From the IMG/VR virus record IMGVR_UViG_3300030085_000608, positions 3,656-25,730 of that record: a stretch of DNA of 22,075 nt, one strand, 5' to 3'. This document shows positions 2,477 to 13,850 of this stretch, one piece after another. The position numbers and the translations under genes are program-made. The stretch's first letter is position 1. Every line of letters starts with the position of its first letter. The notes beneath the pieces were generated by a model. It did not search any database. It worked only from the letters and a program-made list of their open reading frames with translations, and was not told where the DNA came from. Origin of the DNA: a virus.

Positions 2477-5041
2477 TCACTTACGTTTCTTTTTTCTAAG
2501 TTTCTTTCTATATCCTCCATATCTATTTGCAGCAATAAGTCCTTCAGTACCTGAAGCTACAGGCTTTGTTACAAGAGGAGTTATTGCTTGTTTAAGCGAA
2601 CTTATTCCTTCCTTAGCGGCTGCTGGTGTAGATGCAATTACGTCAGTATCTGTAAATTTGTTAAAAAATTTAGTTCCATATTTAAGTAAAGGATTTTTAT
2701 CACCTGCTAAAGCTAAAGTTCTTAAAGCTGCACTATCATAATCTTGATCATACAAATCTTTACCTATCTTATATGTATCTTTAATTTTTGCTAATTGAGG
2801 AACAACATCAACTATCTTTTTACCGGCAGCAAGTCTATTATCTATATTTCCTTCACCCTTAATCTCAGTACTCATTTGTTTACCTATAGTGTAGTATGCT
2901 TGTGGAACCGCTACACCTTTCATTATATTATACGATCCTGACAACAAATTACCTGTTTTTGATTTAGCAGTTTGCATTAAACTTTGACCAATGGGAGCTT
3001 TACTGGTAAGGTTCACAAAATCTTTTGCAGCTTTACTCCCATACTTTTGCATAGGAGATAATAATTGTTTACCGGTAGGTCTTAATACATTCTTATAGAC
3101 AGTTGGAGCATACTTACTTATTAACCCTGATCCGTATTTTGCTATCTGTGTCCCAGTAGTTCCCATAAATCCCGTGCCTCCAATAGGAGCGGTTACAGCA
3201 GTAGCTGCTAATCCCGAAACCATATCAGAAAAATCGTCACCTCTATAAATATTTGCTTTAACAGGATTTGCTTTTGTTAAATAATTAGCTGCCTCTCTTT
3301 GTGCATCTGTTACCTCCTCACCCTTCCTCATAGCTTCTGCCCCTGTTGATGCATCAAGTAAAAACTTATTATACTCTGCCTGATCAGCTTTACTTAGTGG
3401 AGCATCTCTATCTGCTACAATTTCTATTTCTGGAAACTTTTGCATATGAAAAGTTATATCGCCTTGATCATCATATGAACTAGTAGCTACCTTACCTTGT
3501 TTATATGCTTTGCTATAGTCTGCAGTTCCATATGTAACATAATCTAAATCTAATGGAGTAACTTGGTCATTGCCGCCTTCTTGAAACTTCTGTGGATATT
3601 TTGGCTTGTACCCTCCGCTCTTTCTCTTACGAAGTGCTGGTGCTACATCTTTATACTTTTCTGCAAAGTATCTTGCATCTTGCTCACGATTAAACTTAAT
3701 AGCTTCATCTGTTCTAGGACCTGTGTATTGTAAACTACCACCTACATCTTGTATGTTTGGTATAGCAGACTTACCATAGCTACCCATATGATGAGTTCCT
3801 GTTCTACCATCACCAAAATCATATGATTTATCAGTTGGCTTTATCATTCGAGATATGGCTGGGTTATTGCCAAATTCATTTTCCATGGCAATCTTTGCTT
3901 TCATCATACCCGTCATACCTTCATTACTTTCCTTGCTTGGTGTAACTCTAGGACCGTCTGTTCTACGAGGACCTCCATCTTCAAAGTCTTTCTTTTTTAT
4001 TCCTTTTTTAACTAAATTAAGAAGAGATTTTACAGCAAAATTAGAATCTTCAGGAACTTGTATAAGATCTAAAACATCATCTTTAGTAAGCCCCATTTTT
4101 TCTCTATACTCTTTTAATCCAGAAGTGTCTTGTTTACGAAGAATTTTAAGAGCATCAATAATCCCAAAATCTTCATCCTCAGACATTGCTTCTAAATATG
4201 GAGAGCTTAAGGTATTTATAAGTCGTGAAAACTCTTGAACTTCTGCGTCAGTAAGGGTATCTAATTTAGGAAGCACTTTATCCATAGCTTTAAAGACTGG
4301 AGCATTCGCAGACACTATACCATATTTATTTTTATACTCTGTACTTCCCTTATCTTTATAGTATTCATAGGCATTTAGTACATTACTACCTACATAGTCA
4401 TCCCTGTCATATTCTCTATAATTTTTTAGTTCCTTTAGATTTTCTTTTCTATCTTTTTCAATTATTGGCTTTATTATATCATAGTATGGATCTCCCTCAA
4501 AACTTTTCAGAGTTTCAATAGTATTATCCTCAATGTTTTTAAGATCTGATTTTTTTACCAGTTTATTATCATATTCAACATAGTCATCCAGTTTATCTGG
4601 GGAAACTTGAGGAATAAATTTATAAGAGTCTTTTACCAGATCAAGCTTTTTAAAAGCGTCAAAAGTTCTTTTAGATATTACTGCCTTGTCATCAATGCCT
4701 GTAGGTTGCTTAGGATTAGGATCTTTAGTGCCACCCTTTTCCATCTTCTGTATAAGCATACCTTCTGCTGGTCCTGATGGTAAGTTTCTCAGACCAGGAG
4801 GTGCACTTTGATAAGATTGTACTAGATGTCCTTGATTATCTTGCACAGGAGGTTGTGCGCTTGCAGGGTTTATTCGTGGAGGAGACGCTGGGGGTACAGG
4901 CATTTCAGGCATCTGCTGCTGCATATCTACACCTTCAGGACCTTGCGGCTGCTGTTGAGGTTGTAGGATTTCAGCAAGACTGCCTTTATAATTTGACTTG
5001 ATGGCCTCTTTCAAGACCTGCATCTGCTCCTCGTTCGTCAT
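2477..5041 (-). CDS. Large probable virion protein with recurrent GG motifs
   Basis: This 854-residue product has a Gln/Pro-rich disordered N-terminus (residues 1-95), a Lys/Asp-rich helical middle, a Gly/Ala-rich stretch of marginal hydrophobicity (around residues 650-720), and a very basic end (YRKKLRKKKRK). Short motifs of the form charged-x-GG recur: MEKGG, FEDGG, KSGGYKPKY, FQEGG and RYGGYRKK. I do not recognise an enzyme domain. Its ATG shares one base with the portal stop (TAATG), so translation is probably coupled to the portal. Being inside the head-gene block suggests a virion component. The mix of disordered, amphipathic and basic regions would suit an internal or ejected protein, but that is inference. 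An 88-base AT-rich gap with no clear signal follows the gene. Confidence 0.7.
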   Translation of the reverse strand: MTNEEQMQVLKEAIKSNYKGSLAEILQPQQQPQGPEGVDMQQQMPEMPVPPASPPRINPASAQPPVQDNQGHLVQSYQSAPPGLRNLPSGPAEGMLIQKMEKGGTKDPNPKQPTGIDDKAVISKRTFDAFKKLDLVKDSYKFIPQVSPDKLDDYVEYDNKLVKKSDLKNIEDNTIETLKSFEGDPYYDIIKPIIEKDRKENLKELKNYREYDRDDYVGSNVLNAYEYYKDKGSTEYKNKYGIVSANAPVFKAMDKVLPKLDTLTDAEVQEFSRLINTLSSPYLEAMSEDEDFGIIDALKILRKQDTSGLKEYREKMGLTKDDVLDLIQVPEDSNFAVKSLLNLVKKGIKKKDFEDGGPRRTDGPRVTPSKESNEGMTGMMKAKIAMENEFGNNPAISRMIKPTDKSYDFGDGRTGTHHMGSYGKSAIPNIQDVGGSLQYTGPRTDEAIKFNREQDARYFAEKYKDVAPALRKRKSGGYKPKYPQKFQEGGNDQVTPLDLDYVTYGTADYSKAYKQGKVATSSYDDQGDITFHMQKFPEIEIVADRDAPLSKADQAEYNKFLLDASTGAEAMRKGEEVTDAQREAANYLTKANPVKANIYRGDDFSDMVSGLAATAVTAPIGGTGFMGTTGTQIAKYGSGLISKYAPTVYKNVLRPTGKQLLSPMQKYGSKAAKDFVNLTSKAPIGQSLMQTAKSKTGNLLSGSYNIMKGVAVPQAYYTIGKQMSTEIKGEGNIDNRLAAGKKIVDVVPQLAKIKDTYKIGKDLYDQDYDSAALRTLALAGDKNPLLKYGTKFFNKFTDTDVIASTPAAAKEGISSLKQAITPLVTKPVASGTEGLIAANRYGGYRKKLRKKKRK

Positions 5042-12497: not shown

Positions 12498-12522
12498 TAC
12501 CTTTTATCTATCAACACAACAT

Positions 12523-12567
12523 AAGTGTGTGAATGCGTCAACTAGACTGTATTCACCACTTTTGTCT
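12523..12567 (+). terminator. Terminator-like hairpin
   Basis: AAGTG 12523-12527 plus GTGAAT 12529-12534 pair with ATTCAC 12551-12556 plus CACTT 12557-12561, eleven pairs with one bulged T. Three more pairs are possible inside (GTC with GAC). The 3' arm runs into TTTG. The U-run is short, so termination may be partial. Confidence 0.5.
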
Positions 12568-12591
12568 ATCTTTTACTAATCAATAGGTTTA
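12561..12591 (+). promoter_or_regulatory. Candidate promoter for the 52-codon gene and downstream RNA
   Basis: TTTG at 12561-12564 and TAGGTTTA at 12584-12591 are separated by 19 bases, matching the Bacteroidota -33/-7 arrangement except for the last base of the -7 box. A start near 12598 would leave a leader of about 17 bases before the ATG at 12615. The -7 box also lies within a six-pair hairpin (AATAGG 12582-12587 with CCTATT 12594-12599). The -33 box directly abuts the terminator-like hairpin. Confidence 0.4.
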
Positions 12592-12614
12592 TTCCTATTA
12601 CATTATATATCATT

Positions 12615-12773
12615 ATGTTCGAATATACACACGAAGTAATTGAAGAAAGCTCAGGCCAATCTTGGGGCATATTTCCTAATGAAAGTATGGCTAAGATTAT
12701 GCAAGAGGAGCTAAACAGAAGATTTAGATCTATTAAATACAATAGATTCTTTATGGTTAAGCTAATAAAATAG
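12615..12773 (+). CDS. Mini-protein of 52 residues, unknown
   Basis: An ATG at 12615 opens 52 codons ending in TAG. The product starts MFEYTHEVIEESSGQSWGIF and continues with a helix SMAKIMQEELNRRFRSIKYN and a hydrophobic end FFMVKLIK. A helix of alternating acidic and basic residues after a short strand suggests a small folded protein. No family was recognised. Support is the open frame, the preceding promoter candidate and codon use like that of its neighbours; it is too short for certainty. Confidence 0.5.
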   Translation: MFEYTHEVIEESSGQSWGIFPNESMAKIMQEELNRRFRSIKYNRFFMVKLIK

Positions 12774-13056
12774 AAAGGACGTACTATTAGTCAATACAAT
12801 TGGCAACGTCGTATTCCTAAGCAAGAAGACAAACTGCTTTATTTAAAACTTTACCCGGAAGATGAGTAGATCCATAACCTGACGAAATAAACTAAGGGAA
12901 AGCCTTAGTCTAAGATGATTCTAGTTTAACACTAGACGGAATAGGTTTAAACACATATAAAATAACAAGGTTTGTGATGTGAAATTCATCAGCAGGCCTC
13001 TTGACCTTTCAGCCGTTAGAGTCGGTAATAGATAGAGACTTGTTATTTTATTTTTA
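12774..13056 (+). other. Structured RNA leader ahead of the ribozyme
   Basis: No gene is visible in these 283 bases. Three perfect helices stand out on the plus strand: ACTAAGG 12891-12897 with CCTTAGT 12903-12909 (loop GAAAG); TCTAGT 12920-12925 with ACTAGA 12931-12936 (loop TTAAC); and a 13-pair helix, ATAAAATAACAAG 12957-12969 with CTTGTTATTTTAT 13039-13051. The last encloses a 69-base domain containing TGATG/CATCA (12975-12979, 12987-12991) and CCG/CGG (13013-13015, 13023-13025) helices. It ends 5 bases before the ribozyme. It may be a folding platform, a ligand-sensing domain or a protective structure. Confidence 0.6.
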
Positions 13057-13106
13057 GATATACTGATGAGCTTTCAATAAGCGAAACACCTTAGGGTGTC
13101 TATATC
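13057..13106 (+). ncRNA. Type I hammerhead self-cleaving ribozyme
   Basis: All parts of the hammerhead occur in order. Stem I 5' strand is GATATA (13057-13062), followed by core CTGATGA (13063-13069). Stem II is GCTT/AAGC with loop TCAAT (13070-13082), then core GAAA (13083-13086). Stem III is CACC/GGTG with loop TTAG (13087-13098), then TC (13099-13100), completing a GUC cleavage triplet. Stem I closes with TATATC (13101-13106), pairing all six bases of its 5' strand. Ends open through stem I, so it is type I. Cleavage is predicted between 13100 and 13101, leaving a 5'-OH on a message whose ATG is 11 bases downstream (13112). Every invariant core base is present. Stem II is short (four pairs), and loop-loop contacts that speed cleavage cannot be judged by eye. 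Confidence 0.93.
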
Positions 13107-13111
13107 AACCA

Positions 13112-13354
13112 ATGTTATATGTTATGACTTATTATACTTACGGCAGACTAAAGTTCTGCTATCAATTGTTAGCGTTTCTTACAGGTATTATATCTATAAT
13201 ACTTGCAATATTCGCTATTGTTAATACTTCAATTTTGTACGGCTGTGCAACAGCTGTTACAGTAATCTTAACTGCATTGTTCATCAAAAGATCTGAGATG
13301 TATCAGACAAAGATGGACAACTGGAGTTACAAACACTATTTAGACAATGAATAG
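13112..13354 (+). CDS. Small membrane protein with two transmembrane helices
   Basis: The 80-residue product starts MLYVMTYYTYGRLKFCYQ; an in-frame ATG at codon 5 could also start it. It has two hydrophobic segments, about residues 18-37 (LLAFLTGIISIILAIFAIV) and 42-58 (YGCATAVTVILTALFI), then a charged tail KRSEMYQTKMDNWSYKHYLDNE. That makes an inner-membrane hairpin with both ends probably inside. The length fits several phage groups (class II holins, superinfection-exclusion proteins), with no motif to decide. Its stop overlaps the lipoprotein start by 8 bases, so the two are translationally coupled. The hammerhead just upstream would cut its leader to 11 bases. Confidence 0.8.
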   Translation: MLYVMTYYTYGRLKFCYQLLAFLTGIISIILAIFAIVNTSILYGCATAVTVILTALFIKRSEMYQTKMDNWSYKHYLDNE

Positions 13355-13850
13355 TAATTATACCCTCAAGGACTTAGCAGTACTGATTGTACTCTTTGTC
13401 CTTGCGGTGTGGTTAACATCGTGCGATAAAAGAGAAGATGAGTATAATGATATGATGTCAACAGCTACTGTTGCTGTCATGGAAGATAACTCTTACACTT
13501 CGTTTGTTACATATAGCTGCGATGATACAGTAAACACATACATTGTAGAAGATGTACAGTTTGGTGTAGCATATGTAGTTAACCTAGCTCGTATACCATT
13601 TATCAATGATATAAATGACGAGTTTGAGTTTTATGCTATGAAAGATGGCATAAAGTATACAGGAGATGATGTACTACAACGCTTAGTACCACCACCTGGT
13701 CTTAGTATTATCAATGTTCTTGTTGATGCTGAAATACCATACAACGAAAAGATTAGTGTGTATGTATTAAAAGAACATATTCACGACTATGAATATTTTA
13801 TCCAGAAAGGATCTAATGTAGTTCAACTACAGATAGATTGGATATACTAA
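13347..13850 (+). CDS. Phage-encoded lipoprotein with export-signal-like tail
   Basis: The 167-residue product has a short charged N-terminus, a hydrophobic segment (LAVLIVLFVLAVW, residues 10-22) and a lipobox LTSC with Cys26 as the lipidation site. The residues after the cysteine, DKREDE, are rich in acid and lysine. In Bacteroidota such a +2 to +6 signature can direct lipoproteins to the cell surface; the exact consensus varies by genus, so surface export is inference. The mature part is mostly beta (strands around VTYSCDD, GVAYVVNLARI, INVLVDAEI, ISVYVLKEH, VVQLQIDWIY) without known catalytic residues. Coupling to the two-helix membrane protein and proximity to a third membrane mini-protein suggest a host-envelope task such as superinfection exclusion. 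An outer-membrane spanin is less likely at this size. Confidence 0.82.
   Translation: MNSNYTLKDLAVLIVLFVLAVWLTSCDKREDEYNDMMSTATVAVMEDNSYTSFVTYSCDDTVNTYIVEDVQFGVAYVVNLARIPFINDINDEFEFYAMKDGIKYTGDDVLQRLVPPPGLSIINVLVDAEIPYNEKISVYVLKEHIHDYEYFIQKGSNVVQLQIDWIY

Follow-up and report, generated by a model that had tools for sequence, protein, structure and literature searches.

A compact type I hammerhead ribozyme preceding a start codon in a marine phage, with relatives in phages and Flavobacteriales

The synthetic insulator RiboJ, a self-cleaving hammerhead that sits ahead of the ribosome binding site, standardizes the 5′ leader of a message whatever lies upstream. Hammerhead ribozymes near the genes of phages and bacteria are already known. 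In the text of Perreault et al. 2011 (PMC3088659), prophage hammerheads are described as clustered: a prophage has several of them, placed around single genes or short blocks. Activity was shown for some, both in vitro and in E. coli, and the role suggested for them was to divide long phage transcripts into mRNAs of gene length. The same text describes HHphage, a hammerhead variant of haloviruses HF1 and HF2 that lies 13 nt before a helicase start codon and for which the mapped mRNA 5′ end falls no more than 3 nt from the predicted cut. The roles of prokaryotic hammerheads have been described as an open question (PMC6155905).

Here we describe a compact type I hammerhead from a marine phage, together with a large group of elements of the same build. 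They share the core of the prophage hammerheads; as far as the main text of PMC3088659 goes, they differ in being uniformly compact type I elements with an open 6-bp stem I flanked by A, in having the cut usually 11 to 40 nt before a start codon and in that every tested locus scores below the Rfam gathering level. HHphage is alike in its closeness to a start codon and in the mapped 5′ end near its predicted cut, but it was described as a variant, whereas our element has the standard core. That core and the three-way fold are also those of Rfam families Hammerhead_1 (RF00163) and Hammerhead_HH9 (RF02275), although no tested compact member reaches the gathering score. RiboJ is engineered, and its likeness to the phage element is one of analogy, not homology. 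The apparent novelty lies in a uniform compact group that falls outside the Rfam thresholds, in its scale, in its pattern at cassette borders and in its conserved chromosomal operon; we found neither this group nor the operon element of the Flavobacteriales described in the open-access literature searched, which scarcely covers preprints.

Sequence, fold and covariation of the hammerhead element

The stretch analyzed, hereafter the window, comprises 22,075 nt of IMG/VR record IMGVR_UViG_3300030085_000608 (record positions 3,656 to 25,730). Its terminase is 41% identical to that of the Suoliviridae (cr114_1, over 99%) and also matches phrog_6681, and its major head protein matches phrog_11589. 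These protein matches agree with the earlier assignment to the crAss-like phages and point to a marine member of the Crassvirales.

Counting both strands, the window has a single complete hammerhead, a type I ribozyme at 13057-13106 on the plus strand, identified by sequence and fold; the features given below all lie on the same strand. The 5′ strand of stem I (GATATA, 13057-13062) is followed by the invariant core CTGATGA (13063-13069), a 4-bp stem II hairpin (GCTT-TCAAT-AAGC, 13070-13082), the core GAA (13083-13085) and a 5-bp stem III hairpin (ACACC-TTAG-GGTGT, 13086-13099). The GUC cleavage triplet, which is of the NUH type, occupies 13098-13100 and ends in C17 (13100), and the 3′ strand of stem I (TATATC, 13101-13106), with which the message would begin after cleavage, pairs with the 5′ strand at six of six positions. 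The core CUGAUGA ... GAA is thus complete, as are the A15.1-U16.1 pair, which is part of stem III, and the G10.1-C11.1 pair; loops close stems II and III and stem I is open, as in the type I layout. The initial annotation had reported a complete type I hammerhead here, with all core bases, three stems, a fully paired stem I and a GUC triplet, and every one of these elements is present; the cut that it placed between 13100 and 13101 is where the hammerhead fold puts it, cleavage itself being predicted.

The minimum-energy fold of 13057-13106 is identical to the hammerhead structure (−10.3 kcal/mol), and its folding energy (z = −1.8, or −0.67 with flanks) is by itself not decisive. Among 60,000 simulated CTGATGA cores, not one formed a full element, corresponding to an expectation of less than ~1e-4 per window against the one observed. 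The usual tertiary contact between stems I and II is the source of hammerhead activity at low magnesium; it is not evident in the window element because stem I has no loop, and the conserved flanking A's and the mostly U-initial 5-nt loop II could act as a stand-in for it.

Rfam alone would not have decided the case. The best Rfam match of the window element was to Hammerhead_HH9 (22.4 bits, E = 0.17), well below the gathering score of 52, and Hammerhead_1 gave no match on the window contig at E ≤ 1. Hammerhead_1 did match several relatives at the same sites, again below threshold (best 31.5 bits, E = 6e-8), which supports membership of the class without the curated score. At gathering level Rfam returned 0 of 32 hammerhead loci in a run made without a known hammerhead as positive control, and the gathering score is a curated detection threshold, not a biological property. 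A blastn search of the window region against annotated phages gave no match. The expectation that this hammerhead would be missing from standard annotation was borne out.

Using the downstream ORF as bait, we collected 17 marine phage loci. In L002-L011 the hammerhead lies at the same place before this ORF, and its stems II and III have changed in a compensatory way: GCTT/AAGC in stem II of the window becomes GTCT/AGAC in L002, L010 and L011, and the changes in stem III are largely compensated. Loci L012-L016, with ~60% protein identity in the downstream ORF, have no hammerhead, and L012-L015 still have inserted cassettes despite its absence, so that the hammerhead is dispensable. In L012-L015, a conserved hairpin-forming block, TAGCCTCACTC...GAGTCTGGGCTTGTT, with a T-rich end, lies just upstream of the homologous ORF and occupies the place of the window's hammerhead.

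In an alignment of 46 related elements, 99.1% of cells were paired, compared with 72.8% after shuffling, and the shuffles never reached the observed value. Double-sided changes occurred in 13 of 15 pairs, with helix 1 covarying in 6 of 6 pairs and helix 2 being 100% paired. We regard this comparative evidence as decisive and conclude from it that the window element did not arise by chance.

Cassette border and downstream gene

The window loses its homology to L010, L011 and L003 near 12617-12623 and regains it at 13055/13056, immediately ahead of stem I. The stretch replaced is a swappable cassette of 438 nt in the window (12618-13055), is ~10 nt long in L010 and has other content in L011 and L003. 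By these alignments, a swapped cassette in the window's clade has its right border exactly at the hammerhead. A 52-aa ORF inside the cassette (12615-12773), replaced in L010 and L011, had no Pfam match. To the left of the cassette, at ~12500-12617, CACCACTTTT and AATAGGTTTATTCCTATT are conserved across most relatives and are possibly a promoter and a hairpin. Between L041 and L058, one gene flanked by two hammerheads has been lost, with the breakpoint inside a hammerhead. Homology-block starts amounted to 20.8% at hammerheads versus 7.0% at other gene starts, an enrichment of about threefold that is suggestive only, because the sequences are related and not independent.

The region upstream of the hammerhead also contains a conserved structured-RNA-like motif (12772-12839), the 5′ helix of which has double-sided, compensatory changes. 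This motif, AGAAAGG...CGTATTCCTAAGCAAGAAGACAAACTGCTT, occurs in marine phages (the window, L002 and L112-L123), often before small ORFs, and a 24-nt block of it is found exactly in 20 IMG/VR stretches; the window and the L002-L016 loci searched gave no Rfam match to it. A second hammerhead lies 325 nt upstream of the first in L002-L009, such that the two bracket the motif. In L113 and L117, too, hammerheads lie downstream of the motif, and 8 of 10 further records have the motif but no hammerhead. We had suspected that L002 carries a tRNA-like piece between its two hammerheads, but an ARAGORN scan of the window and of L002-L018 gave no tRNA and lent this no support.

Downstream of the hammerhead, an 80-aa membrane-like ORF (13112-13354) is followed in the operon by a 167-aa lipoprotein-like ORF with a lipobox-like LTSC (13347-13850). 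The initial annotation had taken these genes for an envelope-modifying cassette preceded by an 11-nt leader, and neither claim is supported. The envelope-modifying role was dropped because the two ORFs match no family above cut-off. Relatives without the hammerhead begin the downstream gene at the codon matching 13124 (ATGTCTTA), and the start codon is therefore more likely ATG 13124 than ATG 13112; the predicted 5′-OH leader would then be 23 nt (13101-13123), a length typical for the family, instead of the 11 nt that a start at 13112 would give. Throughout the family, the predicted cut lies 11 to 40 nt upstream of an ATG (ORF ≥ 40 aa) in 75 of 85 distinct elements, compared with 20% of random positions, with distances centred near 26 nt. 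In the phage record G018, a Shine-Dalgarno-like AGGAGG sits between stem I and the ATG.

Related elements in phages and Flavobacteriales

A pattern search of IMG/VR yielded 69 stretches, most of them with complete type I hammerheads. We built a covariance model from the 46 aligned elements, of which the window element was a training member, and this model matched 47 of 50 whole records, and further records besides. Together, the pattern and covariance searches put the number of hammerheads with this compact build in IMG/VR phages at well over 100, with as many as 14 in one 22-kb contig, within 6.3 kb, and with about one per gene in G018, which carries many. The hammerhead is thus one of a large family and not the isolated curiosity that it had first appeared to be.

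Among the relaxed-pattern matches listed, 109 of 124 candidates were complete, and stem I was exactly 6 bp in 103 of these 109; within the same matches, A preceded stem I in 98 of 103 and followed it in 95 of 103. Loop II looked conserved as UNANU, but we gave this no weight, since the initial search pattern had required that sequence; 62 of the 109 complete relaxed-pattern matches listed still had UNANU, under a pattern in which the stem II hairpin length was likewise set. Hammerhead-like cores located right before an ATG in L144, L153, L154, L192 and L223 do not fit the type I layout and are possibly of type III, with the ribozyme left on the message.

The model also scored in six cultured phages, none of which had been used to build it: Pelagibacter phages HTVC019P, HTVC131P, HTVC022P and EXVC012P, Methylophilales phage MEP301 and Flavobacterium phage elemoC. 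No ribozyme is annotated in the regions examined of these six phages. The model found no match in gut crAss-like phages cr114_1 and cr50_1, termite-symbiont phage ProJPt-Bp1 or Salmonella phage 7t3, and weak matches only in Yersinia phage YerA41.

A compact hammerhead is present on the chromosome in 24 of 248 Flavobacteriales genomes, and in 21 of 52 within a single marine family. In the first 12 inspected, a Cys/His-rich lipoprotein-like ORF lies downstream in every case, 22 to 27 nt after the predicted cut, and the upstream ORF is a TonB-receptor-like C terminus in 11, the ORF rule having left the twelfth (L241) unassigned. Most further chromosomal examples agree with this arrangement; L257, L260 and L261 do not parse strictly, and the lipoprotein ORF of L262 was not picked up. 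The stems of the chromosomal element show strong covariation within its own set. In L238-L256, L258, L259, L262 and L263, a TonB-dependent receptor gene lies on one side of the element and a small lipoprotein-like gene, Cys/His-rich, on the other. The best NCBIfam matches of the receptor, below cut-off, are to heme and ZnuD types.

Proposed function and its alternatives

We propose, with a probability of roughly 0.7, that the window element is a functional ribozyme cutting at 13100/13101 whose main role would be to process the transcript and insulate the downstream gene. We infer that in the cell the nascent transcript would be cut co-transcriptionally between 13100 and 13101. The upstream RNA, with the cassette ORF and the ncRNA-like motif, would keep the ribozyme and end in a 2′,3′-cyclic phosphate, and the downstream message would begin with a 5′-OH and a short fixed leader of ~23 nt. 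Any cassette inserted upstream would then leave the downstream gene with the same short 5′ end, so that the hammerhead would serve as a natural insulator, by analogy with RiboJ.

Processing and insulation are favored because of the cassette border, the fixed short leader and the presence of one hammerhead per gene in some phages, and the active prophage hammerheads and the mapped halovirus 5′ end (PMC3088659) are precedents. The initial annotation had instead suggested that cleavage sets dose or stability. Such control is possible, and it follows from hammerhead chemistry: cleavage might mainly alter the lifetime of the message, either through the 5′-OH, which is poorly used by 5′-end-dependent decay, or through a protected upstream 3′ end, and about one hammerhead per gene in G018 would fit. 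By itself, however, it leaves the position at the cassette border and the narrow range of leader lengths unexplained, and as the principal function we consider it unlikely. If the useful product were the upstream RNA, a structured small RNA with defined ends cut out by hammerheads, then the paired hammerheads around the RNA-like motif in L002-L009 and the motif's place upstream of hammerheads in L113 and L117 would be accounted for, but most hammerheads of the family have a gene upstream and not this motif, which in turn mostly occurs without hammerheads in the further records; we think this quite improbable.

The location of the L041/L058 breakpoints within hammerheads and the enrichment of homology starts at such elements could also mean that the element is a recombination joint or a selfish element, a short conserved tract for cassette exchange in which cleavage is secondary or irrelevant. 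Yet pairing and the catalytic core persist although the stem sequences have diverged, a pattern that selection on the RNA fold, not on a DNA tract, would produce, and the chromosomal copies remain in one operon, so that we give this idea little credence. Finally, a score below every Rfam gathering level is what a chance or decayed, inactive hammerhead-like sequence would give, but the simulated expectation of less than 1e-4, the compensatory evolution in close relatives and the family-wide covariation contradict such an origin, which we find scarcely credible.

Returning to processing and insulation, we extend the proposal to the family only tentatively, at somewhat short of even odds: compact type I hammerheads may be widespread standard parts of phage operons that insulate 5′ ends and mark cassette joints, and one bacterial family may have fixed such an element in a TonB-receptor/lipoprotein operon. 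With a uniform set that precedes start codons, in cultured phages as well as in a conserved chromosomal operon, the question of what these hammerheads do becomes testable. Present models overlook part of the hammerhead class, and the elements described here would supply natural counterparts of an insulator part used in synthetic biology.
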